From contig JANRJQ010000010.1 in NCBI GenBank assembly GCA_033763895.1, positions 872,146-936,145 of the forward strand: a stretch of DNA of 64,000 nt. The letters are read 5' to 3'. Source of the stretch: Chloroherpetonaceae bacterium. Its GTDB lineage: Bacteria > Bacteroidota > Chlorobiia > Chlorobiales > Thermochlorobacteraceae. Below the pieces are notes generated by a model that was not told the origin of the DNA, did not search any database, and saw only the letters and a program-made list of their open reading frames with translations. The translations under genes and the position numbers were made by a program. Below, piece by piece: positions 1 to 54,576 of the stretch; positions within the stretch are counted from its first letter, which is position 1, and each line of letters opens with the position of its first letter.

Positions 1-3000
1 CTTCACCCTTTTCACCGTAGTTGCGTTGCTCAATCAGTTTCAGACGGCTTTCTGTCCCGATTACGCCAAGCCCGCGCTCTTGATAAAACGCCTCAAATAA
101 ATTTGGAAAAGTGTAACCAATAAGATTCAAGACACCGGCATCAACAGCGGCTAAAGTAACTTCCGCTTGAACCGGCGAACCGTTTTGATCGGTTACGAAT
201 ACCTCTGCTTCTACCGTTTCTTTGGTGTGGAAATTTTTCTTTTGTGGGGTAATTCTAACCTTAAGTTGTCTACTGTCTTTGATGACTGAAAGTTTTGTAT
301 AACCCAATCGGAATTGAGGTTTACCAAAATCATTTTCTCCTTTTTTGGGATAAGAGACTCTGCCCTTTAACAACGCCACAGAAACATACACATTGGGCAA
401 GTAATCCTCCTTGATGGGGATTTCAATCGCGCCGGATGTCGAGGTTAAGGTTTGAACCCGATGATCAAAAATGCCTTCTCGTTCAACGGTAATCAATGCC
501 GTGGCGGTATCGAAAGGTGATTGTACAAGAATTTTTGCAGTTTCTCCGGGCTTGAATTCCTTCTTGTTTGTGACTAGCTCAATTCGATCATGATCTTCCC
601 GCTCCCACGCAACATACGAAGCGCCGTAAGCATAGCAGTATGTTTCGCTGCGAGTGATATTTCCTCGAGAATCTGTGGCAGAAGCGCGAATAAAAAAGAT
701 TCCAGAGCCTTCAAGTTTCAGTTTTTGTGAACTTGCGCCGCTTTCGGAAGTTGAAACCGTTATTGTTTTGATGGTGCTATCTACTTGCTGCGATTCCCAC
801 TCATAGCGGCCGCCAACGCCGGCACGCTTGACACTGATCCATTGTCTGCGAACCAATTCGACCTTCACATTCGATTTTACAGCTTTTCCTTCCGGAGTGG
901 CTGTGACAATCTCAATTGGAAGTTCATAATTTTCGGAAGCAAAGGTGGTTTGGGGTTTCAAACCAATATAAAATTCAGCGGGGTGGAAAATCACTGATGC
1001 TCTTTCTGAAATGGTTTGACGGGTGTTTGAAGTAATCTCGGTCTCTAATGTAAGCAAAGCCGGTTCGGTAGTTTCAAAATCCGTTTTTAAGGAAAGGGTT
1101 GCTTCGCCCTCTGCGGAGAGGGTTCCCTCACCTTGTCCAAGATTATAATTTCGATCGACATATTCCGAAGACCAGCCAAGTGGTTGCCAGAAATAGCCAT
1201 CAAAGCCTGTGATTGAAAGGCTTGGCAATACGGCACGATTTAAATTCCAACGGTAGGTGCTCTTCGACATCGGTGCGCCAAAAAGGTATCTGCCCTCAAT
1301 CACGGCTTTAAGCGGGGAACCGCGCACGATGGAGCGCTCGCTCGGGATGACCTTTGCAGTGAAGGTTGCCGGTTTAAAAGCTTCAACTTGAAATGAACCG
1401 GAGCTGAGATATTCATTTTTCGCATTTCGTAGAGAAATGGAATAGTAGCCTAATTTCGCTGAAGTGGAAAGTGAAAGGGAATCGGCAAATGCGCCGTATT
1501 TCTTATCGGGAGAATATGTTTTTTTGAATATGACCTCATCGCGAGCATCTCTAACCTGAAGTTCAATTGGTGTGGTGAGATTTTCCCAACCTCTCAGGCC
1601 ATATCGGCGAGCAATGCCTTTGAAGAATACTTTTTCGCCGGCTCTGTAAATTCCGCGTTCCGTAAAAAGCTCAACCCGCTCGTTGTTGCGATCGGTATTA
1701 TAATCAGCGATTCCAAATCGCCACCGCTCGATACCGTTGTCATCAGAGGAAATTACAGAGGTCTCGCCGTTATACTCTGTAACGATGACAATTCCTTTTT
1801 TTCCGTAATCGCCGTTAGCGTGATGAAACGCTATTTCATTTGAATAAAGATTTCCTGCTAAAGCGACACCATCCGAATTGGTTTTACCTTCCCATACTTT
1901 TTTCCCGTAGGAGTAAATTCGAACATCGGCGTTGGGGAGAGGCTGCGCATTTGAGAGTTTTGTTACCAATACACGGGCATTGTTCATTCCGAATTTAGCA
2001 GTAACCCCTAAAGAGGTGAGATGAACAAGCGCAATCTTATTGAGGTAGTTTTGGTTTTGATTAAAAGGAATAGCGGTTTCAACCAACACAAACCCTGATT
2101 TACGATCGGGGCTGAGCGCTTGCCTTAAATCCCACTTTTTTCGAAACTCAGTATTTTTTGTGTTTGGTATCTGAACTTTATACTCCTTCATTCCAGAAGC
2201 GGCTAGAGATCTAAGATTTCGTGAACTCCAGTAATCATTGCTATTTTGGGAAGAATAAAACTGAACAATTTCTGATGAAGAAACTTCGCGGTAACGAAGC
2301 GTGAGCGAAGGAATGTTCATACCGACGAGCGAGAGTCCGGGAAAAACGGATGAATCGGCATTCGGAAACTCCGTTTCCATCAATCCGACCCCGTCAGGCA
2401 TCATAAAATAGGGTTCATAATCGCCTACATTGACGATAATCTCGGCCTGTTCTTTGAGATTTTGCCCATATTTATCCACCAATTCTTTGCCCAAACGAAC
2501 GACATATTTTGTATTTGGTTTGAACCGACGATATAAATAATGATAAGTGGTGTTGTATCCCGAACTTTCAATCGAAAGGGTATCGGCAAACGGCGTAATG
2601 GAAATCAGACGCCTAAGATCAAGATTAGAAACAGGCGTTGAAAACTGCAAGTCGGGGTAAGTGCCGGCAGGAATTGAAAATTCCTTTTCACCCTTATAAT
2701 AAAATTCCTCTCTGAAATTGAGGGTATGAACGGAACTTGAAGCCCCATCTTTCAATTGAAGCGTAACTTGCTCAGAGGGTGATAGTTTCGATGTGATTGT
2801 TAAGATCGCGATTCGTTCAGTTGGGGTGCTGTTTAAGAGGTAAATTTCATTGTACTTTTCAAGCTTTTCAAAGGACTCAATTTTTTTCTTTTTTTCCTCA
2901 TTGGTTAAAAATTTTAAGGTGTATGTCAGTTGCTCCGATTTGCTATTGGTAAGCGAAATCAGTTTTTTGACTGATTCATCGGCTTTAAAACGAAAGCGCA

Positions 3001-3616
3001 AAAAGATTTCATCATCGAAATCAAGTTTTTCCCATCTCCCGCTTGGCTGACACTCCACAATCCGTTGCCTTGGGGTAGAAAAAGAAAATTTGTAATCCGC
3101 TTTATCTTCAAATTGCTTGCCGTTAAGTGAACTAATAGATTTTGGAATCGCCACTTCATAAGTTGTTGAAGGGGGGAGCGTATCGGCAGGGGTAAAGAGA
3201 ATCGTGCGACTCCCCAGCCAGCGGATGGTTCCCGGAATTTCGGGCGTGAACTTTAATAGGGTGTTTTTTTGTGGGTTTTGTGTTTCTTCATTGATTTCCA
3301 CCATCGGTTGGTTGAAGAGAATAGAAACTTCATTCACCGCTTCAGATTCCGTTTCTCCGGTAGGCGAAACAAACTCCACTTTAAGAAATAGAAAACTGAT
3401 ATCACTTTCCTCAGCAGTTTCAAAAGAACCTAATCGCCCGGACTCAAACGGGATTTTATTTTCCGGCGTGTCTTCTTTTTTGCACCCTGTTATCAAAATG
3501 ATTGTCAGGATGGCAAAGAGAAAGGCATAGTTTTGACAGTAAAGCGTGAATCGTTTGAAGTGATGAATGAACTTAAAGCATAGCGCACAGAATTGTGCAA
3601 GGTCTGACATTGTCAT
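1..3616 (-). CDS. alpha-2-macroglobulin family lipoprotein, C-terminus beyond the window
   Basis: Reading the minus strand from ATG at 3616 gives 1205 codons without a stop, running off the left edge. The start encodes a hydrophobic stretch ending in the lipobox ITGC (Cys about residue 45), so this should be a lipoprotein. An Ig-like domain follows, then many beta-sandwich MG domains. The segment near 130-250 reads AAVDAGVLNLIGYTFPN, typical of the bacterial alpha-2-macroglobulin core. Bacterial homologues (YfaS/MagD type) are periplasmic protease traps, often paired with penicillin-binding protein 1C. The thioester region (CxEQ) would lie further downstream and is not visible, so its presence is unknown. 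An in-frame ATG at 3610 is an alternative start, and no clear Shine-Dalgarno sequence decides between them. Confidence 0.88.
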   Translation of the reverse strand, partial: MTMSDLAQFCALCFKFIHHFKRFTLYCQNYAFLFAILTIILITGCKKEDTPENKIPFESGRLGSFETAEESDISFLFLKVEFVSPTGETESEAVNEVSILFNQPMVEINEETQNPQKNTLLKFTPEIPGTIRWLGSRTILFTPADTLPPSTTYEVAIPKSISSLNGKQFEDKADYKFSFSTPRQRIVECQPSGRWEKLDFDDEIFLRFRFKADESVKKLISLTNSKSEQLTYTLKFLTNEEKKKKIESFEKLEKYNEIYLLNSTPTERIAILTITSKLSPSEQVTLQLKDGASSSVHTLNFREEFYYKGEKEFSIPAGTYPDLQFSTPVSNLDLRRLISITPFADTLSIESSGYNTTYHYLYRRFKPNTKYVVRLGKELVDKYGQNLKEQAEIIVNVGDYEPYFMMPDGVGLMETEFPNADSSVFPGLSLVGMNIPSLTLRYREVSSSEIVQFYSSQNSNDYWSSRNLRSLAASGMKEYKVQIPNTKNTEFRKKWDLRQALSPDRKSGFVLVETAIPFNQNQNYLNKIALVHLTSLGVTAKFGMNNARVLVTKLSNAQPLPNADVRIYSYGKKVWEGKTNSDGVALAGNLYSNEIAFHHANGDYGKKGIVIVTEYNGETSVISSDDNGIERWRFGIADYNTDRNNERVELFTERGIYRAGEKVFFKGIARRYGLRGWENLTTPIELQVRDARDEVIFKKTYSPDKKYGAFADSLSLSTSAKLGYYSISLRNAKNEYLSSGSFQVEAFKPATFTAKVIPSERSIVRGSPLKAVIEGRYLFGAPMSKSTYRWNLNRAVLPSLSITGFDGYFWQPLGWSSEYVDRNYNLGQGEGTLSAEGEATLSLKTDFETTEPALLTLETEITSNTRQTISERASVIFHPAEFYIGLKPQTTFASENYELPIEIVTATPEGKAVKSNVKVELVRRQWISVKRAGVGGRYEWESQQVDSTIKTITVSTSESGASSQKLKLEGSGIFFIRASATDSRGNITRSETYCYAYGASYVAWEREDHDRIELVTNKKEFKPGETAKILVQSPFDTATALITVEREGIFDHRVQTLTSTSGAIEIPIKEDYLPNVYVSVALLKGRVSYPKKGENDFGKPQFRLGYTKLSVIKDSRQLKVRITPQKKNFHTKETVEAEVFVTDQNGSPVQAEVTLAAVDAGVLNLIGYTFPNLFEAFYQERGLGVIGTESRLKLIEQRNYGEKGE

Positions 3617-3744
3617 GTTCGAAGGGCAAGTTGGTTTTTTTGAAAATGCTTATAAAGTTACACTTTGAAATGAATTCGAGGCAGAAAAAAAGCAATTGCT
3701 AAGGGCATTCACTTTTGCGGCAATCTCAAACTTGGTGCAAAAAC

Positions 3745-3775
3745 TTGGTAAATGAAAAGATGCGCCGTATATTTG
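3745..3775 (+). promoter_or_regulatory. promoter for the metK-ahcY leader RNA
   Basis: TTG at 3745-3747 is followed after 20 nt by TATATTTG at 3768-3775, which fits the Bacteroidota/Chlorobiota consensus TTG-N(17-23)-TAnnTTTG. Transcription would begin near 3781, exactly where the structured leader starts. This is an inference from the consensus; no start site has been mapped. Confidence 0.7.
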
Positions 3776-3780
3776 CAACC

Positions 3781-3872
3781 GCTTTTCGTTCCCAATATGT
3801 TTGGACACGGCGAAAAGTCGAAGCTGAAAGGCTTTCGCTGGCAGAAATGCTTAGGAAATGCAACTGTGTCTG
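3781..3872 (+). promoter_or_regulatory. candidate SAM-Chlorobi riboswitch upstream of metK-ahcY
   Basis: Three helices can be drawn by eye. P1 pairs CTTTTCG 3782-3788 with CGAAAAG 3811-3817. Hairpin P2 pairs 3819-3824 with 3831-3837. An 8-bp helix pairs GGACACGG 3803-3810, which lies in the P1 loop, with CTGTGTCT 3864-3871, so the fold is an H-type pseudoknot. The SAM-Chlorobi motif is known only from Chlorobi and only upstream of metK-ahcY operons, which is the context here. Placement in that family is by context and architecture; I could not align to the published consensus. The leader ends in an intrinsic terminator at 3889-3913, so control by transcription attenuation in response to SAM is the likely mechanism. 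Confidence 0.65.
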
Positions 3873-3888
3873 AACAAATGTCATTCTT

Positions 3889-3913
3889 GCCTTTCCAAGT
3901 GGAAGGCTTTTTT
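3889..3913 (+). terminator. intrinsic terminator/attenuator in the metK leader
   Basis: GCCTTTCC (3889-3896), loop AAGT, then GGAAGGC (3901-3907, one bulge) followed by six T. It sits 17 nt after the pseudoknot and 82 nt before metK, the position expected of a riboswitch expression platform. No alternative antiterminator helix was worked out. Confidence 0.7.
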
Positions 3914-3995
3914 GTTTTAAATGCTGCGGCTAAAAGGATCCTTTTTTGGAGTTCGTTTTTTTGTCAATTCGTTCATTTAATAAAACCGGTGCACT

Positions 3996-5195
3996 ATGGC
4001 ACGATATCTATTTACATCGGAATCCGTTTCCGAAGGGCATCCCGATAAGGTTGCCGATCAAATTTCTGACTCCGTTCTTGATGCGATTTTGGAGCAGGAT
4101 AAAGATGCAAGAGTTGCTTGCGAAACCTTTGTCACAACCGGCCAAGTGGTTGTTGGTGGAGAAATTACCACAAAGGCTTATGTGGAATTCTCTGATCTTA
4201 TCCGTGGGGTAATTAAGGATATTGGTTACACCAAGGGTGAATACATGTTCGAATCCAAATCGTGCGGTATTCTTTCAGCCATTCACTCACAATCGCCGGA
4301 TATAAACCGTGGGGTTGACCGCAAAGGTGCAAAGGATAAATACGAATCTGTTGGCGCCGGAGACCAAGGCATGATGTTTGGCTTTGCTTGCAAAGAAACA
4401 CCTGAATTAATGCCTGCACCGGTTAGCTTTGCACATAAGCTTGTCAAAAAATTGGCCGATCTTCGAAAAGCAGGGAAGGATATGACCTATCTTCGCCCCG
4501 ATGCCAAAAGCCAAGTCACCCTTGAATACGATAACAACAAAGTCATCCGCGTTGATACTATTGTGGTATCAACCCAACATGACCCTGAACCCGCCGGCGT
4601 CACTGAACGTGAATTTCAAAAGCGGATTAAGGATGATATTATCGCCAAAGTCATTACGCCAACGCTTCCAAGCTACTTGCTTGACCGCAATACCAAGTTT
4701 TTTATCAACCCAACCGGTCGTTTCGAAATTGGCGGACCTCACGGCGATACGGGCTTAACCGGACGAAAGATTATTGTTGATACCTATGGCGGTGCAGCCC
4801 CGCACGGTGGTGGTGCTTTCTCGGGCAAAGACCCCTCGAAGGTTGACCGCTCAGCCGCGTATGCTGCCCGTTACATTGCGAAGAATGTGGTTTCTTCTGG
4901 CCTTGCCGAGCGTTGCACCGTTCAGGTGTCGTATGCTATCGGTATTGCAAAACCTGTGTCGATTTATGTCAATACACACAGCACCGGAATGAAAGGAATC
5001 ACTGATGCCGAGCTTCAAGCCAAGGTTGAAAAACTCTTTGATCTTCGCCCGCTCGCGATTATTGAAACCTTCGGCCTCACCAAGCCAAAAGGGTGGTCAT
5101 ATAAGCAAACCGCTGCTTACGGGCACTTCGGCCGCGACATCTTCCCTTGGGAAAAAGTTGACCGCGCCAAAGATTTGCAACGCGCTTTCAAATAA
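3996..5195 (+). CDS. metK: S-adenosylmethionine synthetase
   Basis: Methionine adenosyltransferase makes S-adenosylmethionine from methionine and ATP, releasing phosphate and pyrophosphate, in the cytoplasm. The 399-residue length is normal. The N-terminus carries the conserved [18 protein letters not shown], with the substrate-binding GHPDK at residues 14-18, followed later by [12 protein letters not shown] and the glycine-rich [16 protein letters not shown] near residues 270-285, which are diagnostic. It is the first gene of a two-gene operon with ahcY, 42 nt upstream of it. Expression is likely controlled by the structured leader at 3781-3913. There is no obvious Shine-Dalgarno sequence, but the ATG coincides exactly with the conserved N-terminus. 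Confidence 0.98.
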
Positions 5196-5237
5196 ACTTG
5201 TAATCGAATCGACTCTAATAACTTAAATACAGAAAAA

Positions 5238-6557
5238 ATGGCTACAACCGCAGAAGTCAAACGCTTACCGTTTAAGGTAAAAGATATTTCCCTTGGCGAT
5301 TGGGGAAGAAAAGAAATTCGCCTTGCCGAAGCTGAAATGCCCGGCCTGATGCAAATTCGTAAAGAATATGGCGCACAAAAGCCGCTCAAAGGCGCTCGCA
5401 TTGCCGGCTGCTTACACATGACCATTCAAACCGCCGTTTTAATCGAAACCTTGATTGAGCTCGGCGCAGAAGTCAGCTGGTCATCGTGCAATATCTTTTC
5501 AACGCAAGACCACGCCGCCGCAGCGATTGCCAAAGCCGGAATTCCGGTTTATGCGTGGAAGGGCATGAACGCCGAGGAATTTGATTGGTGTATTGAGCAA
5601 ACCCTTTTTGCCTTCAAAGATGGGCAACCGCTCAATATGATTTTAGACGATGGCGGCGATCTCACCAATATGGTGCTTGATAAATACCCCGAGCTTGTGG
5701 CCGGTATTCGCGGAATCTCCGAAGAAACCACCACCGGTGTACACCGCCTTTATGAACGCCAGCAACACGGAACGCTTCCGCTCCCGGCAATCAATATTAA
5801 CGATAGCGTAACGAAATCGAAATTTGATAACAAATACGGCTGCCGCGAATCATTGGTGGATGCCATTCGCCGTGGAACGGATTTGATGCTTGCCGGTAAA
5901 GTGGCGGTTGTTGCAGGCTTTGGTGATGTGGGCAAAGGCTCTGCGGAGTCGCTTAAAAATGCCAATGTGCGCGTCATCGTAACCGAAGCTGACCCAATTT
6001 GTGCGCTTCAAGCGGCAATGGAAGGCTATGAAGTTAAAAAGATGGAAACCGCCGTGAAGGAAGCCGACATTGTGGTGACCGCCACAGGAAACGAAGATAT
6101 CGTGACGGAAAAGCACTTCCGCTCAATGAAGGATAAAGCCATTGTCTGCAATATCGGCCATTTTGATACCGAAATTGATATGGCGTGGCTCAATAAAAAC
6201 TACGGCCATACCAAGATGGAAATTAAGCCGCAAGTGGACCTTTACAACATTGAAGGGAAGGATATCATTGTGCTCGCTGAAGGCCGTTTGGTGAACTTGG
6301 GCGTGGCGACCGGGCATCCGTCGTTCGTGATGTCGTGCTCCTTCTCCAACCAAGTGATTGCCCAAATGGAACTTTGGCAAAATAGCAAGAGCTATGAGAA
6401 CAAAGTGTATATGTTACCAAAGCACTTGGATGAAAAGGTTGCCCGCCTGCACCTTGAAAAGCTTGGCGTTGAACTCGAAGAGCTTTCTGAAAAGCAAGCC
6501 AAGTATATTGGCGTGAAACAAGAAGGCCCATTTAAGCCGGAGTATTATCGGTATTAA
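5238..6557 (+). CDS. ahcY: adenosylhomocysteinase
   Basis: S-adenosylhomocysteine hydrolase reversibly splits SAH into adenosine and homocysteine, removing the product that inhibits methyltransferases. The 439-residue protein has the NAD-binding Rossmann motif [15 protein letters not shown] near residues 222-236, the active-site region [24 protein letters not shown], and the canonical C-terminus KPEYYRY, which supplies the Lys and Tyr that close on NAD. It is the second gene of the metK operon and is followed by a strong terminator. Together the two genes make SAM and clear its by-product, which fits control by a SAM-sensing leader. Confidence 0.98.
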
Positions 6558-44788: not shown

Positions 44789-47700
44789 ATGCCAAAAATC
44801 TACGATAATATAGCAAATAATTTAACCAAAGGGTTAAACGATACACTTGAAGTCTCTTCAAGAGCCGATTTTTGCGTTGGCTATTTTAATTTAAGAGGGT
44901 GGAAGGAAGTATCTGAGAATATTGACAAAATGGGTGGTTCAACAATAATTGAAGGAAAAGAAGAAGTTCATAGAATATGTAGGTTATTGGTTGGAATGCA
45001 AAAGTTACCCATTGAAATACTGCGCGAATATTTTTCTGGCGATTTAAACCATCTAATTGATCAATCCGAAGTTATTCGTCTAAAAAAACAATTAGCCCAA
45101 GAATTTAAAGAGCAATTAACGATTGGTACCCCAACTGAAGTTGATGAAGCTGCATTAAGAAAATTATGCCAACAGTTAAAAGATAAAAAAGCTGTTGTGA
45201 AGTTGCACCTTCGCTATCCTCTTCACGCAAAATTATATTTAGCGTATAGCAAAGATAAAAGAGTACCTGTTATAGGTTTTTTAGGAAGTAGCAATATGAC
45301 ACTAGCAGGTCTTGCAAAACAAGGTGAACTTAACATTGATGTGATGGATCAAGATGCAGCCAACAAATTAGCAACTTGGTTTGATGACCGTTGGAATGAC
45401 CGATGGTGTATCGACATAACTCAAGAACTTATTGAAATTATTGATAACTCTTGGGCAGCTGATAGATTGGTTTCCCCATTTCACATTTACTTGAAAATCG
45501 CCTATCACCTTTCAAGAGAAGCAAGAGCAGGAATAAGTGAATTCAAACTTCCAAAGGTTTTCCAAAGAGAACTTCTTGAATTTCAACAGAAAGCAGTTTT
45601 GGTTGCTGCTCATCACTTAAACAAAAGAGATGGAGTTTTAATTGGTGATGTGGTAGGACTGGGCAAAACAATTACTGCAACGGCTTTAGCAAAAATGTTT
45701 GAGGAAGATTTTTTCCTTGAAACATTAATAATTTGCCCTCCCAATCTAAAAGAAATGTGGGAAGAATACCGGATAAAATATACCCTAAATGCAAGAATAA
45801 TATCAATTGGGGAAGTCCAAAAAATACTCCCAACATTAAGAAGATTTAGATTAGTGATAATAGACGAAAGCCACAACCTTCGAAACGACCAATCTATTCG
45901 ATACAGAGCAATAAAATCATACTTAGAGGAAAATGATAGTAAGGTAATTTTGCTTTCAGCCACACCTTATAACAAAAGTTATATAGATCTCTCTAATCAA
46001 CTTCGATTATTTATTTCTGACGACAAAGATATCGGGATTAGCCCTGAACAATACATTGAAAACATTGGCGGGGCAGTTCAATTTTCGTCAAACCATACGG
46101 ATACTTTCATAAGAAGCATAAAAGCCTTCGAAAAAAGTCATTTTTCGGATGACTGGAGAGAATTAATGCGGTTATACTTAGTTCGTAGAACAAGAAGCTT
46201 CATAAAAGAAAATTATGCAAAAACAGACGAAAGTAATGGAAGGAAATACTTAACATTTGCCGACGGAACTAAATCATTTTTTCCAGAAAGAATTCCAAAA
46301 AGAGTCGATTATTCCTTTGACCCAAACGACGAAACAGACCAATACGCAAAACTATACTCATCAAAAGTAGTTGATACGATCAACTCATTAGAACTACCTA
46401 GATATGGTCTACAACAATATCTTAATGATAAGCCACACATAAGACCAACGAAGGAAGAAGAACAAATTATGCTAAATCTGAGCAGGGCCGGGAAACGGCT
46501 AATGGGTTTTTGTAGAACAAACTTATTCAAAAGGTTGGAAAGCAGCGGTTATTCATTTCTACTTTCACTAAGTAGACACATTTTAAGAAACTTTGTGTTT
46601 GTGTATGCACTACAAAATAATTTACCAATTCCAATTGGTAAAAACATATCACAGAATTTAGATGATTACATAGAAGACAGTGATACTGAACAAAATGAGA
46701 TAGGGAAAAATGAAAATGGAAAAGTAAAAGAAGAAAGCGCAAAAAATGAAAAGAGATCATTAAAATTAATTTTAAAAGAGGAAATATATCTAGAAAAAGC
46801 ACAGGAAATATATAAGTACTTTTCAAACGAAAACAATAAAAGAGGATTTGATTGGATTAGAAGTGAATTTTTCTCAAAGCATAGAAAAGAAAAAATTGAC
46901 AAGGAAGGTAAAAGAGAAATTGAAGAAGTTTCATTAATAAAAACATTGATTGAAGATTGTAAAAAAATTATTGAGATATTAGAGTTGGGTAAAGACTGGA
47001 ACACAGATAATGATAGACAGTTGAACGCACTTCACGAATTAATTGCATTAAAACACAGCAAGGAAAAAATTCTAATATTTACACAATTCTCAGATACAGC
47101 AAACTATCTTACTAAAGCCCTACTTGAAAGAGGAGTTTCACAAATTGATAGCGTTACTGGAGATGACGGCAACCCTACAATTAAAGCCCAAAGATTTAGC
47201 CCAATAAGTAACCAAAAGCCGGAGTTGAAAGGATATAATGAAATTAGAGTACTAATTTCTACAGATGTCTTAAGTGAAGGTCAAAACTTACAGGATGGGC
47301 ATATTATTGTTAATTATGATTTGCCGTGGGCTATAATACGATTAATTCAAAGAGCTGGACGTGTTGACCGCATTGGGCAAAATGCAGAACGAATTTTATG
47401 TTACTCTTTTTTGCCGGAAAAGGGAATTGAAAAAATAATCAAATTAAGAGAACGGCTCACAAAACGTATTGAAGAAAACGCCAATGTAGTGGGTAGCGAT
47501 GAAACCTTTTTTGATGGCGACCCTGTAAACCTTGCAGACCTTTACAATGAAAAATCGGGCATTTTGGACGGTGAAGATGATGATACCGAAGTGGATTTGG
47601 CTTCCTTGGCTTATCAGATTTGGAAAAACGCTACAGACGCAAATCCTGAACTGAATAAAATCATACCCGATTTGCCGAATGTAATTTATGCCACCAAACA

Positions 47701-48247
47701 CAATGATGAAGCACCTGAAAAAGAAGGTGTAATTGTTTACACCCGAACATCAGAAGAAAACGATGTTTTGGCTTGGGTGGACAATAAAGGAAAAATCATT
47801 ACCCAATCGCAACATACCATTTTAAAAGCGGCACAATGCACACCCGATACCGTACCGAAATACAAATTGGAAAAGCATCACGAATTGGTAAAAAGCGGCA
47901 TTGACTTTATTCGTGAAGAAGAAAAAAATACAGGTGGTTCATTGGGTAAAAAAACAGGCGTAAAGTATCGTGTGTATATGCGACTTGACCGCTATTGCAA
48001 AGAGTATGAAGGAACTTTATTTGTGAACGAGCAGCTGAAAAAAGCAGTGGACGACATTTACAAATATCCTTTAAAGGAGTTTGCAAGAGAGACCTTAAAC
48101 CGCCAACTCAAAGCAGGTATTTCAGACGACCAATTGGCAAACTTGGTGATTTCACTTCGTGAAGAAGATAAATTGGCAATCGTAAATGAAGATGAACAAC
48201 CCAACAAAGAACCGCAAATCATTTGCTCATTGGGCTTAAAAAACTAA
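44789..48247 (+). CDS. PLD-like nuclease/SNF2 helicase fusion of a restriction-type system
   Basis: In 1152 residues there is an N-terminal phospholipase-D-like domain (about 1-215) with a single HxK motif (H146AK148 in PLHAKLYLAY) followed by GSSNMT. After it comes an SNF2 superfamily 2 helicase: Walker A GDVVGLGKT (286-294), DESH box (359-362), SATPYN (390-395), and a C-terminal lobe with ILIFTQFSDT, VLSEGQNLQDG and QRAGRVDRIGQ. A Lys/Glu-rich insertion lies near residues 630-700. One HxK suggests the nuclease works as a dimer. It heads a run of genes (KilA-N, methyltransferase, DprA-like) typical of anti-phage restriction systems. It is AT-rich up to about 47500, then less so. Confidence 0.88.
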   Translation: MPKIYDNIANNLTKGLNDTLEVSSRADFCVGYFNLRGWKEVSENIDKMGGSTIIEGKEEVHRICRLLVGMQKLPIEILREYFSGDLNHLIDQSEVIRLKKQLAQEFKEQLTIGTPTEVDEAALRKLCQQLKDKKAVVKLHLRYPLHAKLYLAYSKDKRVPVIGFLGSSNMTLAGLAKQGELNIDVMDQDAANKLATWFDDRWNDRWCIDITQELIEIIDNSWAADRLVSPFHIYLKIAYHLSREARAGISEFKLPKVFQRELLEFQQKAVLVAAHHLNKRDGVLIGDVVGLGKTITATALAKMFEEDFFLETLIICPPNLKEMWEEYRIKYTLNARIISIGEVQKILPTLRRFRLVIIDESHNLRNDQSIRYRAIKSYLEENDSKVILLSATPYNKSYIDLSNQLRLFISDDKDIGISPEQYIENIGGAVQFSSNHTDTFIRSIKAFEKSHFSDDWRELMRLYLVRRTRSFIKENYAKTDESNGRKYLTFADGTKSFFPERIPKRVDYSFDPNDETDQYAKLYSSKVVDTINSLELPRYGLQQYLNDKPHIRPTKEEEQIMLNLSRAGKRLMGFCRTNLFKRLESSGYSFLLSLSRHILRNFVFVYALQNNLPIPIGKNISQNLDDYIEDSDTEQNEIGKNENGKVKEESAKNEKRSLKLILKEEIYLEKAQEIYKYFSNENNKRGFDWIRSEFFSKHRKEKIDKEGKREIEEVSLIKTLIEDCKKIIEILELGKDWNTDNDRQLNALHELIALKHSKEKILIFTQFSDTANYLTKALLERGVSQIDSVTGDDGNPTIKAQRFSPISNQKPELKGYNEIRVLISTDVLSEGQNLQDGHIIVNYDLPWAIIRLIQRAGRVDRIGQNAERILCYSFLPEKGIEKIIKLRERLTKRIEENANVVGSDETFFDGDPVNLADLYNEKSGILDGEDDDTEVDLASLAYQIWKNATDANPELNKIIPDLPNVIYATKHNDEAPEKEGVIVYTRTSEENDVLAWVDNKGKIITQSQHTILKAAQCTPDTVPKYKLEKHHELVKSGIDFIREEEKNTGGSLGKKTGVKYRVYMRLDRYCKEYEGTLFVNEQLKKAVDDIYKYPLKEFARETLNRQLKAGISDDQLANLVISLREEDKLAIVNEDEQPNKEPQIICSLGLKN

Positions 48248-48275: not shown

Positions 48276-49103
48276 ATGGAAATACCTATGACCAAAAGCA
48301 AAAAAATTCAAGTTAAGGGAATAGAAATATCCATTATCCAAGACGATAACAAGGACTTTATCTCCCTTACAGATATGTTAAGAGCCAAAGATGGTGACTT
48401 TTTTATTTCCGATTGGCTTAGAAACAGAAACACGGTCGAGTTTTTGGGAATATGGGAATCGGTTTACAATCCTAATTTTAATTATGGCGAATTCGCCACA
48501 ATTAAAAGTCAGGCCGGCTTGAATAACTACAAAATCAGTGTGAAAGAGTGGGTTGAGAAAACCAATGCAATTGGCTTAAAAGCTACGGCTGGAAGATACG
48601 GTGGAACCTACGCTCATAGTGATATAGCTTTCGAATTTGGAATGTGGATAAGTGCTGAATTTAAGATTTACCTTATCAAAGAGTTCCAACGACTAAAAGC
48701 CGATGAAAATGACCGACTTAAGTTAGAATGGAATCTTCAACGAACTTTAGCCAAGGTAAACTACCACATTCATACCGATGCCATCAAAGAAAATTTGATC
48801 CCCAAAGAATTGAGCAAAACCCAAATTAGTTTGGTGTATGCCAATGAAGCGGATATGCTCAATATGGCTTTATTTGGTTTTACGGCAAAGCAATGGCGAG
48901 AAACCAACCCTGAGAAAGATGGAAATGTTAGAGATTATGCCACCATTGAACAATTGGTGGTGCTGTCTAATCTGGAAAGCATCAATGCGGTATTAATCAA
49001 TCAAGGATTGTCACAACCAGAAAGATTAAAACAATTGAACCAAATTGCAATCACTCAAATGAAATCTCTCGTGGCTAATCAACAAATTAAAAAACTGAAA
49101 TGA
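48276..49103 (+). CDS. KilA-N domain protein
   Basis: A 275-residue protein whose first 150 residues match the KilA-N/APSES DNA-binding domain: FISLTDMLRAKDG, SDWLRNRNTVEFLGIWE, the WVEKTNAIGLKATAGRYGGTYAHSDIAFEFG core, and FKIYLIKEFQRLKADE. The C-terminal part is helical with no catalytic motif. KilA-N proteins are usual in phages and large DNA viruses. Here the gene lies between the helicase and the methyltransferase, and its stop overlaps the methyltransferase start by four bases, so it is a fixed part of the operon. It could recognise DNA for the system or regulate it. Confidence 0.9.
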   Translation: MEIPMTKSKKIQVKGIEISIIQDDNKDFISLTDMLRAKDGDFFISDWLRNRNTVEFLGIWESVYNPNFNYGEFATIKSQAGLNNYKISVKEWVEKTNAIGLKATAGRYGGTYAHSDIAFEFGMWISAEFKIYLIKEFQRLKADENDRLKLEWNLQRTLAKVNYHIHTDAIKENLIPKELSKTQISLVYANEADMLNMALFGFTAKQWRETNPEKDGNVRDYATIEQLVVLSNLESINAVLINQGLSQPERLKQLNQIAITQMKSLVANQQIKKLK

Positions 49104-52100
49104 GCTTAGACAAAAAAGACTTTTCAATCTACATCAAGCAGTTCAATTTTCGAGAACTGTTTAATGATATGGGCTGGAACAACGATAAAACAACCCAACC
49201 CATTGTAGTTGACAATGAAACCTACACTTTACAAGCAGTTGCCGAAAAAAGCGGTTTCAAAATCTTGTTGTGCAATCCGCTTGCTAATGGCTTAATTCCC
49301 GACTACAACACCCGTAAAAAAATTGAAACCAAAGTAACCAAACTGTTTCAGGAGCATTTGATTATCTTTTTTGACTCCAAGAAAACCGAACAGATTTGGC
49401 AATTGGTAGTAAGGCAATCGGGCAAACCAACCAAAGTAACCGAAACCCGTTGGCACATCAACCAAGACCCTGAATTGCTTTACCAACGGGCAGCAGGCAT
49501 TTTCTTTGAATTAGACGAAGAAGAACACATCACCATTATTGACGTAACCAAACGCATTGCCGACAACTTCCACCAAAACAACGAAAGAGTTACCAAGCAG
49601 TTTTACGACAAGTTTAAAAAAGAACACGGAGCATTTCTGCAATTCATCAAAGGCATTTCCGACAAAACCAATCAGGAATGGTATGCTTCATTGATGCTCA
49701 ACCGATTGATGTTTTGCTACTTCATTCAGAAAAAAGGGTTTTTAGACAACAACAAAAACTACCTGCGTGATAAACTGCTTGCCTGCAAAGCCAAAAAGGG
49801 CAAGGTGAAATTTTACTCTTTCTATCGTGATTTCCTTTTGGTGCTATTTCATAAAGGACTGAACGAACCCACGCAAAGCCCTGACACCAAAATAGAAATT
49901 GGAAAAATTCCTTACCTGAACGGTGGTTTATTTGACGAACACGAACTGGAAAAAAACAACGATAGTATTGACATTGATGACAAAGCATTTGAACGCCTTT
50001 TTGATTTCTTCGACCAATACGAGTGGCATTTAGATACCCGACACACGGCAAGTGGAAAAGACATTAACCCCGACGTGATTGGTTACATCTTTGAGAAGTA
50101 TATCAACGACAGGGCTAATATGGGTGCTTACTACACCAAAGAAGATATTACCGACTACATCAGTAAAAATTGTATCCTGCCCTATTTGTTTGACGAAACC
50201 AAACGCCATTACCCTAAAGCATTTAATGCAGATTCCGAAGTGTGGCAAATGGTAAAGCAAAGTGGCAAACAATACATTTATGATGCAGTAAAAAAAGGTG
50301 TGGAAGAACCCTTACCAAAAGAAATTGAACAAGGCATAAAAGATGTAAGCAAACGCTCCGAATGGAATAAACCGGCTACCATCAATTACGCTTTACCCAC
50401 AGAAATTTGGCGTGAAGTGGTGGACCGCAGAAACCGCTACACCGAAGTAAAAAGCAAAATTGACAACGGCGATATTCAGCATATCAACGACTTTATTACC
50501 TACAACCTGAACATACGCCAGTTTGCACAAGATGTAGTAGAAAACACCAACGACCCCGAATTGCTCAAACACTTTTACAAAGCACTCAACAGCGTTACCA
50601 TTATTGACCCTACTTGCGGCTCTGGTGCGTTTTTGTTTGCGGCAATGAACATTTTAGAACCCTTGTATGAAAGCTGCCTGCAACGGATGGAAAACTTTGT
50701 TGCCGAAGCACCAAAAGGCAAATACAAGTTTTTTGAAGAAACGCTGGCACAGGTAAAAAGCCCCGAACACCCCAACCTGCAATACTTCATTTACAAAAGC
50801 ATCATCCTGCGAAATTTGTATGGGGTGGACATTATGAAAGAAGCGGTGGAAATTGCCAAACTGCGTTTATTCCTCAAACTCGTTGCTACTGTAGAAGCCG
50901 ATTACCGCAAACCCAATTTAGGCTTAGAACCTTTGCCTGATATTGATTTTAATATCCGTGCAGGAAATACGTTGGTGGGTTTTGCTACAGAAACAGAGCT
51001 GCGAAAGGGACTTAAATGGAAACTTGATTTTGATGGCGAAGAAGAACGGATAAACGAAAAATGTGAGATTGTGTCCAATGCCTTTAAACGTTACAAAGAA
51101 ATTCAATTGACTTATGGCGATGATTTTCAGGAGTTCAAAAAAGCTAAATCAGAACTCAATAAGCGACTGAAAGAATTAAACCACGAACTCAATCAATTGC
51201 TTCATAAACAAGCAGATGGCTTGAAATATGAGGCTTGGCTACAATCGCATCAACCCTTTCATTGGTTTGCAGAGTTTTATGAAATAGTGCAGGAAAAGGG
51301 CGGCTTTGATGTGGTGATTGGGAATCCGCCGTATGTTGTTTATACAAAGAAAGATAGCAAAACCAAAATGTCAATAGCTGACAGGTATAAACTCACCAAT
51401 TTTGAGACTCTTCCAACAAACAACTTATACTCATTCGTAATCGAAAGAAGCTCAAATTTATTAAATAGAATGGGGAAACTTGGGATGATAGTTCCTATTG
51501 CTTCTGTTTCTACTGAGGCAATGAAAGAATTGCAAAATTTATATTCTAAAAAATTTAGTAGCCAATGGCACTCAAACTACTCTACACGACCAGGAAAATT
51601 ATTTGCTGGGGTTGATATGAATTTAACAATATCAATTCTAACAAAAACCGATTCTAAATCAAACTTTGTTACCGATTACACTCGTTGGTATGATGGTGAA
51701 AATAAAAATCGAGCTTATATTTTCGATTTGTTGAATTATGTTGAATTTATAAATTCGGTAAAGTTTCAGAATAATTATCCTAAATTTTCTAAAAAGATTG
51801 AAATTGAGATTTTAAAGAAGATGTTAAGTCACAATAAAAAGCTTAGTTTTTTTTATTCAAATATTGGTTCAAATGTTTTTTACCATTCAGGTGGAAGATA
51901 TTGGAGAAAAGCAATTGACCAAAGTTTTTCTTCTCATTATAAGAAAATTACGTTGGTTAGAGAAAATTTAAGTATCGCTCTATGTTTGTTAAATAGCCAA
52001 CTTTTCTATTGGTATTGGATTTCAAACTCTAACTGTATGGATGTGGTTTCGAGAGAAGTAGATTTGCTGCCGGTCTTTAATTTAGAAAACAAGTTTGAGG

Positions 52101-52351
52101 AATTTAATTCACTCGCTTCACAGTTGCTTGAAAGTTATTTTGATAATACTGAAAATAGAGTTCGTTTAGGAGAAATTATTAATACAACTGAAGTGAACTT
52201 TGATATAAAAAAATCCAAACCCATCATAGACGAAATCGACACAGTTTTAGCCAAGTACTACGGTTTTACCGATGAAGAATTAGACTTTATCATCAACTAC
52301 GATATTAAATACCGAATGGGTAAGGAACTTGAAAACGAAGACGAAGCATGA
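49100..52351 (+). CDS. Eco57I-like adenine DNA methyltransferase with TaqI-type specificity domain
   Basis: In 1083 residues there is a large N-terminal region (1-480) without a recognisable PD-ExK nuclease motif, then the N6-adenine methyltransferase core. Motif I is DPTCGSGAFLF (about 503-513) and the catalytic motif is GNPPYVV (about 741-747). The C-terminal portion (about 760-1060) looks like a TaqI-like target-recognition domain. It presumably marks self DNA and may provide specificity to the PLD-helicase partner. The start overlaps the KilA-N stop, and its stop overlaps the ATG of a truncated DprA-like frame (ATGA). The specificity part is visibly more AT-rich than the core, suggesting domain exchange. 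Confidence 0.9.
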   Translation: MSLDKKDFSIYIKQFNFRELFNDMGWNNDKTTQPIVVDNETYTLQAVAEKSGFKILLCNPLANGLIPDYNTRKKIETKVTKLFQEHLIIFFDSKKTEQIWQLVVRQSGKPTKVTETRWHINQDPELLYQRAAGIFFELDEEEHITIIDVTKRIADNFHQNNERVTKQFYDKFKKEHGAFLQFIKGISDKTNQEWYASLMLNRLMFCYFIQKKGFLDNNKNYLRDKLLACKAKKGKVKFYSFYRDFLLVLFHKGLNEPTQSPDTKIEIGKIPYLNGGLFDEHELEKNNDSIDIDDKAFERLFDFFDQYEWHLDTRHTASGKDINPDVIGYIFEKYINDRANMGAYYTKEDITDYISKNCILPYLFDETKRHYPKAFNADSEVWQMVKQSGKQYIYDAVKKGVEEPLPKEIEQGIKDVSKRSEWNKPATINYALPTEIWREVVDRRNRYTEVKSKIDNGDIQHINDFITYNLNIRQFAQDVVENTNDPELLKHFYKALNSVTIIDPTCGSGAFLFAAMNILEPLYESCLQRMENFVAEAPKGKYKFFEETLAQVKSPEHPNLQYFIYKSIILRNLYGVDIMKEAVEIAKLRLFLKLVATVEADYRKPNLGLEPLPDIDFNIRAGNTLVGFATETELRKGLKWKLDFDGEEERINEKCEIVSNAFKRYKEIQLTYGDDFQEFKKAKSELNKRLKELNHELNQLLHKQADGLKYEAWLQSHQPFHWFAEFYEIVQEKGGFDVVIGNPPYVVYTKKDSKTKMSIADRYKLTNFETLPTNNLYSFVIERSSNLLNRMGKLGMIVPIASVSTEAMKELQNLYSKKFSSQWHSNYSTRPGKLFAGVDMNLTISILTKTDSKSNFVTDYTRWYDGENKNRAYIFDLLNYVEFINSVKFQNNYPKFSKKIEIEILKKMLSHNKKLSFFYSNIGSNVFYHSGGRYWRKAIDQSFSSHYKKITLVRENLSIALCLLNSQLFYWYWISNSNCMDVVSREVDLLPVFNLENKFEEFNSLASQLLESYFDNTENRVRLGEIINTTEVNFDIKKSKPIIDEIDTVLAKYYGFTDEELDFIINYDIKYRMGKELENEDEA

Positions 52352-52455
52352 TAAAAGAAACCCTTGGAAATACCGACCTTTTAAAGCTCCCCAAAACAGC
52401 TTTTTTGTGCAGCCGACAAGTTCCTGCTTCGGTGGTATTGAAATGCTATGACTAG
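52348..52455 (+). pseudogene. truncated copy of the DprA-like gene
   Basis: A 35-residue frame starting at the ATGA overlap with the methyltransferase stop. Its protein has 22 of 28 residues identical to the N-terminus of the intact gene at 54109 (shared KTAFLCSR and PASVVLKCYD), then stops at TAG where the intact gene has TGG. The rest of the gene is missing and is replaced by the deaminase-ATPase gene. The coupling to the methyltransferase suggests that the original operon order was methyltransferase then DprA-like. Confidence 0.8.
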
Positions 52456-52475: not shown

Positions 52476-53981
52476 ATGGCAAAGAAAAAAGAAGACAAAG
52501 CATTTAATCCAAGACTCTATATGGAATTGGCTATTGCGGAAATGAATAAGTCTATTCAAGAGCCAAGGAAAGATAAGGTAAGCCCAAAAGTAGGAGCAGT
52601 TTTAATCAAACCTGATGGCACAGAAGAAACTGCATTCAGGGGTGAGCTTCGCCACGGAGACCACGCAGAATTTACATTACTTGAAAGAAAGAACCGTAGC
52701 AATCCTTTGGAGGGCTCAATACTATTTGCAACACTTGAACCTTGTGCTCCGGGAGCAAGAAATCACCCTAAACTGGGCTGTGCAGAAAGAATTGTAAATG
52801 CCCGCATTAAGAAAGTTTGGATTGGCATTGAAGACCCAGATCCATCAGTAGATAGAAAGGGTATAAAATATTTGCTCGACAATGGCGTTGAAGTAGAAAT
52901 GTTTGACGTTGACCTGCAAAAACAAATTCGTGATGCTAACAAGCAATTTATTGAAGAAGCGGAAGATAGAGCCAAGAAAGTAAAAGAGAAAATACCCACG
53001 GTGGTATTGTCGGAAAAAGAAAGAACGGAGCCACGGGCTGAATTGGATGATTTGTCGAACCTGCATTTAGAAGCATTCATTAACAAAGCCAAGCTAAATG
53101 TCGAGCTTAACACTCCTAAATTTTACAGAATACTTACTCAGTTGGGTGTTTTGGAGTTTAAAGATGATAAGTATTTGCCCACAGGTTTAGGGTTGCTCTT
53201 GTTTGGCGAACGTCCGCAATTGATTTACCAAAATGCGCTGATTAGAGCTACGTATAAAACCAAAGGTAGAGGAGAAGATATTGAAACCATTCAAGGCCCG
53301 CTTATTTCTCAGGCAGACAAAATTCAACAATGGTATGTAACCCATATTGGCAAACAGATAGACCGTTCTGCTTCCGAAAGGAAAGTTACTTACGATTACC
53401 CCTTAGTCGTTTTACGTGAAGCTATCATTAACGCTATTGTTCATAGAGATTATGATATAGATGGTGCTCCTATTTATTTTGAAATTAATGATGATGCCAT
53501 TATCATTAAAAGCCCGGGCGAACCGGTTAAACCAATTACGTTGGAACAAATCAAGCGGTTCAATGCTCCTTCATTAAGTCGAAATCCCAAGATAATGTAT
53601 GTTTTTGACCAAATGGAGTTGGTTGAACAAAGGGGTTTAGGATTTCAAACCATTAAAGACTTGCCCACAAAGCATAATTTGCCTTTGCCGTTAGTTTCTT
53701 ATGAAGCCCCGTATATGGTTATGAAATTTCCAAGAAGTATTGAGGCTGCAAAAAAAGCGGCTGATAATCCTAACGTAGCAAAGCTAAATGATGCTCAACT
53801 AAGTGGTTACGAATGGCTTAAAACAGTGGGAGAAGTAAGCACAAGGGAATATTCAGCTCATTTTAACATTGGATATAAAACTGCCCAACGACATCTTGCA
53901 GCAATGAAAGATCTTGATTTAATACATGATAATGGAGAAGATGCAAATTCTCCTAATTATAAATATGTTGTAACTGAATGA
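52476..53981 (+). CDS. RibD-type deaminase fused to a Schlafen-associated ATPase module
   Basis: In 501 residues, residues about 10-165 form a zinc-dependent cytidine-deaminase-fold domain of RibD type: HAE at 63-65 (zinc His and catalytic Glu), then TLEPC with Cys90 and LGC with Cys102. Residues about 195-295 match the winged-helix and linker seen after AlbA_2/Schlafen domains (PTGLGLLLFGERPQ). Residues about 305-420 are a GHKL-type HATPase_c_4 domain (N-box REAIINAIVHRDY 314-326, SPGEP, RGLGF). A C-terminal winged helix follows. Normally AlbA_2 occupies the N-terminus of such proteins; here a deaminase replaces it. It lies between broken and intact DprA-like genes in a restriction-type operon, so a role in defence is likely but inferred. 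A riboflavin role is unlikely: no reductase domain or rib genes are present. Confidence 0.85.
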   Translation: MAKKKEDKAFNPRLYMELAIAEMNKSIQEPRKDKVSPKVGAVLIKPDGTEETAFRGELRHGDHAEFTLLERKNRSNPLEGSILFATLEPCAPGARNHPKLGCAERIVNARIKKVWIGIEDPDPSVDRKGIKYLLDNGVEVEMFDVDLQKQIRDANKQFIEEAEDRAKKVKEKIPTVVLSEKERTEPRAELDDLSNLHLEAFINKAKLNVELNTPKFYRILTQLGVLEFKDDKYLPTGLGLLLFGERPQLIYQNALIRATYKTKGRGEDIETIQGPLISQADKIQQWYVTHIGKQIDRSASERKVTYDYPLVVLREAIINAIVHRDYDIDGAPIYFEINDDAIIIKSPGEPVKPITLEQIKRFNAPSLSRNPKIMYVFDQMELVEQRGLGFQTIKDLPTKHNLPLPLVSYEAPYMVMKFPRSIEAAKKAADNPNVAKLNDAQLSGYEWLKTVGEVSTREYSAHFNIGYKTAQRHLAAMKDLDLIHDNGEDANSPNYKYVVTE

Positions 53982-53987
53982 GTTAAT

Positions 53988-54087
53988 GAACTTGGACAAT
54001 AGCTTGGACATAATGTCCGAGTTGCAGGTATTAAAGTGGTTATAAGTTCTGAACTTGGACAAGAGGTTGGACATAGTGTCCAAGTAG
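53988..54087 (+). repeat. two direct repeats with internal palindromes after the deaminase-ATPase gene
   Basis: GAACTTGGACAATAGCTTGG and onward (53988-54024) recurs as GAACTTGGACAAGAGGTTGG and onward (54051-54087). Each contains an inverted repeat: GGACATaATGTCC at 54006-54018 (perfect) and GGACATaGTGTCC at 54069-54081. The region is also open in the deaminase-ATPase frame except for TGA 53979 and TAG 54000, so it may be a decayed C-terminal extension as well as, or instead of, an operator for the next gene. Confidence 0.6.
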
Positions 54088-54108: not shown

Positions 54109-54576
54109 ATGCTGCTACAAATAAAAGAACAAATAGGTAACATAGAACTGCTAAAGCAATCTAAAACAGCTTTTTTATGCAGCCGTAAAATTCCTGCTTC
54201 TGTAGTATTGAAATGCTATGACTGGGCAATTGAGCAAAGAGAAAAAGGCAATTGTGTTATCAGCGGCTTTCACAGCCAAATAGAAAAAGATGTGTTGCAT
54301 TATCTGCTCAAAGGAAAACAGCCCATCATATTGGCATTGGCAAGAGGACTAAAAGACAAATTAGAACCTGAGTTTGAAAAACCACTTGAACAAGGCAGAC
54401 TTTTAATCATCACACCGTTTGTTAAATCGGTAAAACGAGTAAGCAGCCAAAACGCCGAAAAGCGAAATTTACTTATGGTTAAACTTGCTGATGAAATCAT
54501 AGTAGGTTATGCTAATGTGGGTGGAAAATTGGAAGTATTATTAAAATCCATTACAAAATCATTCAAAAGGCTTTAA
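54109..54576 (+). CDS. DprA/Smf-like Rossmann protein
   Basis: A 155-residue protein resembling the Rossmann domain of DNA-processing protein A. It has KTAFLCSRKIPASVVLKCYDWA, then VISGFHSQIEKDVLHYLLKG (the GxxS-type loop), PIILALARGL, GRLLIITPF and NAEKRNLLMVKLADEIIVGYA. Bona fide DprA is longer and binds single-stranded DNA for recombination. These short relatives are common beside restriction-modification genes, and their function is unsettled. I chose ATG 54109 over the TTG at 54091. A truncated homologue sits at 52348. Divergence between the two shows they are not a very recent duplication. Confidence 0.78.
   Translation: MLLQIKEQIGNIELLKQSKTAFLCSRKIPASVVLKCYDWAIEQREKGNCVISGFHSQIEKDVLHYLLKGKQPIILALARGLKDKLEPEFEKPLEQGRLLIITPFVKSVKRVSSQNAEKRNLLMVKLADEIIVGYANVGGKLEVLLKSITKSFKRL

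Follow-up and report, generated by a model that had tools for sequence, protein, structure and literature searches.

The window, a 64,000-nucleotide stretch of a Chloroherpetonaceae genome, carries a run of genes in the same orientation: an HKD/PLD-SNF2 helicase gene (44789..48247, +; PADLOC C3a139), a KilA-N gene (48276..49103, +; PADLOC candidate PDC-S22), a type IIG restriction-methyltransferase gene (49100..52351, +), a 35-codon remnant of a DprA-like gene (52348..52455, +), a gene encoding an N-terminal deaminase joined to a GHKL ATPase and a winged helix (wHTH) (52476..53981, +), and a full DprA-like (SLOG/Smf) gene (54109..54576, +). Two units of repeated sites lie between the deaminase gene and the full DprA-like gene. 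The helicase, KilA-N, and restriction-modification (R-M) genes support the location in a defence island that an earlier note on this DNA had proposed.

The deaminase gene, delimited by its open reading frame, Pfam matches, homologue alignment, and structure model, starts with ATG and encodes 501 amino acids with no internal stop. Pfam finds dCMP_cyt_deam_1 at residues 14 to 117 (E 1e-9) and HATPase_c_4 at residues 330 to 410 (E 1e-15), the latter with N-box and G residues present. From Pfam, NCBIfam, and Foldseek results, the zinc deaminase domain was assigned to residues 8 to 165 (52497..52970, +). Its zinc motif is complete as the earlier note had read it (H63-A-E65, P89-C90, and C102), including the numbering of Glu65 and Cys90. 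A linker (residues 166 to 310; 52971..53405, +), colinear with that of AlbA_2 and DUF4062 proteins, leads to the GHKL ATPase (residues 311 to 420; 53406..53735, +; N-box E315/N319/H323, SPG348, N370, and G389) and the C-terminal winged helix (residues 421 to 501; 53736..53978, +), which has a helical pattern in the AlphaFold2 model (pLDDT 80), matches Pfam HTH families weakly, and is swapped among homologues independently of the remaining protein. A Foldseek match of the model is 3lmm (DIP2311 of C. diphtheriae, E 7e-13), which together with Pfam and the alignment agrees with the succession of linker, ATPase, and winged helix read earlier from the sequence. The dN/dS between the window gene and two homologues is about 0.05 to 0.07, with synonymous change exceeding replacement change more than 10-fold; the gene is therefore a maintained one and not a chance fusion.

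The closest curated family of the deaminase is ribD, with which it shares the fold (RibD/RibG deaminase half, E of about 1e-9), the zinc motif, and a DPxPxVxxxG segment. The N terminus thus has its best sequence and fold match in RibD, as would be expected if a metabolic enzyme of riboflavin synthesis or nucleotide salvage had been joined to an ATPase by chance. However, the NCBIfam ribD alignment (residues 32 to 164) reaches only 58.4 bits against a cutoff of 156, and HATPase_c_4 and the wHTH stand where RibD has its C-terminal reductase. When nine family members were compared with 15 RibD proteins of the same phylum, the RibD-invariant residues (PNPxVG, GxH, and CxHxGKTPPC), which we take from the RibG structure to line the substrate pocket, were changed in all nine, while the zinc residues were the same. 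In their place, the family has invariant Arg55, Arg95, Lys99, and Arg105 and its own motifs, RGE[LI]..GDHAE[FY].LLE and C..R...K..C..R. Phylogenetic analysis separates the family from RibD with support of 100/100. A single true RibD is encoded in this genome, on another contig. The earlier label "RibD-type" therefore holds for the fold and not for the signature residues. That the homologues might lie mainly beside riboflavin genes had been named as a point against a defence role; no riboflavin gene was found among the scanned neighbours of the window gene and its homologues. Because the signature is replaced, the reductase is absent, no riboflavin gene is adjacent, and the true RibD lies elsewhere, we conclude that the window deaminase is not RibD, and the replaced residues, the split in the tree, the separate RibD, and the gene context make a riboflavin intermediate an unlikely substrate. 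With a patchy distribution and mobile, defence-linked contexts as well, we regard a house-keeping deaminase as highly improbable.

We collected 14 full-length homologues, eight from GTDB contigs and six from 394 Bacteroidota genomes, all covering both halves of the protein with 41 to 87% identity; 13 of them are from Bacteroidota. Only 7 of the 394 genomes have the gene, the window's own included. One homologue, L001, sits in a Clostridiales MAG that is itself the sole carrier among the 299 genomes of the surrounding check, so its gene there probably reflects mis-binning or recent transfer. In the alignment of homologues, H63, A64, E65, P89, C90, and C102 do not vary, and no other domain is as well conserved as the deaminase, which has 56 to 68% identity to distant members compared with 41 to 45% for the ATPase, 27 to 35% for the linker, and 28 to 31% for the wHTH. 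The alternative raised earlier, an inactive deaminase fold in most members, is contradicted by this conservation. The window protein very likely does deaminate.

In the 394 genomes, the deaminase clade is confined to this architecture except at L112 (1405-2634, -), where it follows a weak sigma-70 region-2-like N terminus in a 409-residue protein. The full-length query found no relatives in viral contigs, and in phage and plasmid records its matches were essentially to the ATPase half; with the deaminase alone as query, most matches in those records were to genes annotated as RibD, TadA, or "deaminase". Two viral contigs have deaminase relatives with other partners (L113, 4992-5885; L114, 4282-5316), one nearly stand-alone and the other behind an N-terminal region of no assigned identity.

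A survey with the linker, ATPase, and wHTH alone as query places the deaminase among exchangeable N-terminal domains. All 58 full proteins classified have HATPase_c_4 on this shared chassis, which is preceded by SLFN_AlbA_2 in 44 and by DUF4062, which we take to be TIR-like, in 12; no SLFN_AlbA_2 match was found in the window protein by Pfam. On the chassis tree, the deaminase proteins form one clade (100/99), so a single swap is enough to explain them, and DUF4062 requires two changes. The exchange can also be seen between related type I R-M systems, which carry the deaminase version at L017 to L020 and the DUF4062 version at L074 (84% identity in HsdM and 81% in HsdR). The DUF4062 proteins differ from the window protein in the N-terminal domain, and triple site units were not found 3' of their genes. 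The Schlafen-type proteins (the DIP2311/3lmm type) share the linker, ATPase, wHTH, and overall fold with the window protein, as well as the single-gene form and R-M or BREX contexts, and for some, as for the deaminase genes, direct repeats follow closely after the stop codon, but the proteins carry AlbA_2 in place of the zinc deaminase.

AlbA_2 is described as an RNase, and a 2026 survey proposed the Schlafen RNase-minimal histidine kinase-wHTH protein, found in at least 1,017 taxa, as a backup suicidal effector (PMC12839542). The earlier note had the deaminase replacing AlbA_2 as a nucleic-acid domain; the position is right, but given the RNase activity (PMC12839542) the swap is one of effector for effector and not of a nucleic-acid-binding domain. 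The chassis survey and the suicidal-effector proposal thus put the deaminase in the effector's place (PMC12839542). A zinc (d)C deaminase of the same superfamily, AvcD, is known in phage defence (PMC10511110). AvcD and dCTP deaminase proteins have a P-loop kinase domain, however, whereas the window protein has the GHKL ATPase and wHTH, and no P-loop kinase-like domain was found in it by Pfam scan. The earlier note knew of no named system with this composition, and our literature search likewise found none, which is weak evidence since its coverage of subscription papers and bioRxiv was thin.

Defence genes (type I/II R-M, Lamassu, SIR2-APAZ, DRT2/CBASS, and Abi) neighbour the deaminase gene at 11 of the 15 loci; no recognisable defence neighbour was seen at the other four (L002, L003, L005, and L022). 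At L017 to L020, the gene lies inside type I R-M operons with HsdM, HsdS, and HsdR, and at L017 to L019, PDC-S06, Lamassu-like, or SIR2-APAZ genes are interposed among the Hsd genes. At L021, an HsdR gene with its own C-terminal SLFN_AlbA_2 (2655-5822, -) is directly upstream, and at L006 (8314-15074), the gene is flanked by a DRT2 reverse transcriptase on one side and by CBASS genes (E1/E2 and DncV-like) on the other. Further neighbours are Abi_C and AbiJ (L001), a type II methylase and a GHKL nuclease-like gene (L004), a PLD nuclease, an M.Eco57I-like gene, and TIR-dynamin (L007), and Fic-BroN and a helicase remnant (L008). We consider it likely that the window protein serves defence.

The R-M operons at L017 to L020, together with the type IIG enzyme gene in front of the window gene, could also point to a base-modifying restriction factor, in which the wHTH would bind invading DNA and the deaminase would convert C to U or A to I there, with repair nucleases acting afterward as part of the R-M reaction. 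The presence of a wHTH and a distant likeness to the APOBEC3 fold fit such a factor, but the fold is more similar to those of RibD and dCMP deaminase than to that of APOBEC, several loci have the gene without R-M, and no partner glycosylase was seen. We therefore find it improbable.

In the window, the ATG of the DprA-like remnant overlaps the R-M stop codon (ATGA), and its TAG is 20 bp before the deaminase ATG. The same order of 5' remnant, deaminase gene, and DprA-like gene is found at L007 and L008, with different junctions. In G015, the type IIG R-M gene is followed by an intact DprA-like gene, giving an empty slot, while the slot holds DarT-DarG in G146 and a PDC-M59A and Fic pair in G140. 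Since the slot elsewhere holds toxin-type defence modules, the deaminase gene behaves as cargo. The DprA-like gene marks the edge of this cargo slot behind HKD-SNF2/type IIG R-M genes in the window and at L007, L008, L140, L141, L143, and L145; among its occupants are the deaminase gene, DarTG, and Fic modules, and 5' DprA-like remnants stay behind. The DprA-like gene itself was rejected as an obligate partner, being present at 3 of the 15 loci. Neither this slot nor the paired sites described below were part of the earlier note.

The sites begin about 10 bp past the stop codon. The first unit (53992..54020) consists of a direct TTGGACA, a second TTGGACA 12 bp on, and an inverted TGTCC(G)A, and the second unit (54055..54083), 63 bp further, contains the perfect palindrome TTGGACATAGTGTCCAA, the palindrome being formed by the last two half-sites. 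Tandem triple half-site units occur at the equivalent place in the 14 homologous loci with a period of 62 to 63 bp, in several sequence types of the same layout. TTGGACA units with a 63-bp period are found at L001, L002, L006, L007, and L008, ATCGCGACA units at L003, L004 (imperfect in these two), and L017 to L020, ATCCCGCAA units at L021, TTCCGGCAA units at L022, and CATAGACA units at L005, where a TTGGACA unit follows further on. The site sequence follows the type of wHTH and not the remaining protein. Among nine aligned members, pairs sharing a site have at least 73% identity in the wHTH and 48 to 94% in the rest, and pairs with differing sites have at most 41% in the wHTH and 46 to 91% in the rest. 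Because site identity tracks wHTH identity whatever the rest, recombination has moved the wHTH and sites together. As the wHTH is encoded right next to the sites, plain physical linkage could by itself yield such covariation, but it leaves the constant geometry of each site type unexplained. On balance, binding of the 3' sites by the wHTH seems reasonably likely to us.

In a strict triple half-site test, a score of at least 14 was reached by 13 of 15 deaminase genes, 4 of 46 AlbA_2 genes, and none of 11 DUF4062 genes; control upstream (3/70) and gene-body (9/171) stretches scored rarely. Short direct repeats at 8 to 16 bp within 80 bp past the stop were found for 26 of 61 deaminase and AlbA_2 chassis genes, whereas neighbouring genes had them in 13 of 261 cases and upstream stretches in 4 of 72 (Fisher 1e-12, an optimistic value because the test was designed after examples had been seen and related genes are not independent). 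Arrays of direct half-sites right after the stop of AlbA_2-GHKL-wHTH genes were noted at L043, L044, L046, L048, L053, L054, L057, L061, L076, and L078, with about 12 copies of GATTCGGAAGC at L044 and about four of ATGACACAATAA at L054. A REP-like element was rejected, as the palindromes are confined to this one place in the genome, and so was a coding tail, as neither of the spacings, 62 and 72 bp, is divisible by three and the frame has stops. As to an RNA antitoxin of the AvcI type, which goes with AvcD, the palindromes might form hairpins, but the direct-direct-inverted layout fits DNA sites better.

Putative binding sites, along with the Pfam label "DIP2311-like transcriptional regulator" on part of the fold, might suggest a regulator whose wHTH and ATPase control the neighbouring R-M genes and whose deaminase fold senses a nucleotide or makes a signal. 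However, allowing one mismatch, the palindrome occurs in the 3.5-Mb genome only 3' of the gene and, as a one-mismatch match, in one further place. A regulon is thus not visible, and the two local sites are behind the gene and not before it. The strict retention of the catalytic zinc and Glu residues in the best conserved domain and the absence of R-M at several loci also argue against a regulator, which we consider unlikely.

The protein is probably an undescribed phage-defence effector, and the reading we favour, with some confidence, is that of a single-gene anti-phage effector, probably toxic once on, whose deaminase is gated by the ATPase and wHTH. The deaminase would be the warhead, and the linker and ATPase would form an ATP-dependent dimerisation or gating module common to bacterial Schlafen and DUF4062 effectors. 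The wHTH may be parked on the paired sites 3' of its own gene, read invading DNA, or both. No antitoxin or dedicated partner was found, so a toxic effector would need autoinhibition; once released, the deaminase would deplete nucleotides or edit RNA. Free (deoxy)nucleotides have about an even chance of being the target, RNA is a possible but doubtful one, and DNA is less likely still. As to the trigger, we can only speculate that the enzyme is set free when it leaves the putative sites, when something changes at them, or when it engages foreign DNA. Tentatively, the whole family may be one that swaps both its N-terminal warhead (Schlafen RNase, DUF4062, or deaminase) and its C-terminal DNA specificity, the wHTH and its adjacent cognate sites being exchanged as one block. 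Tandem sites immediately behind its own gene would then hold the effector or be sensed by it, until loss or alteration of this anchor during infection unleashes nucleotide or RNA deamination.

Defence loci commonly carry GHKL-wHTH proteins of the Schlafen type, but the papers covered do not establish their trigger. A version with a deaminase shows the ATPase-wHTH half to be a general switch able to drive different warheads, and the 3' site arrays offer a concrete handle on the binding target of that switch. Deaminases are of practical use in base editing, and this new clade, with a signature of its own, may have a new substrate.
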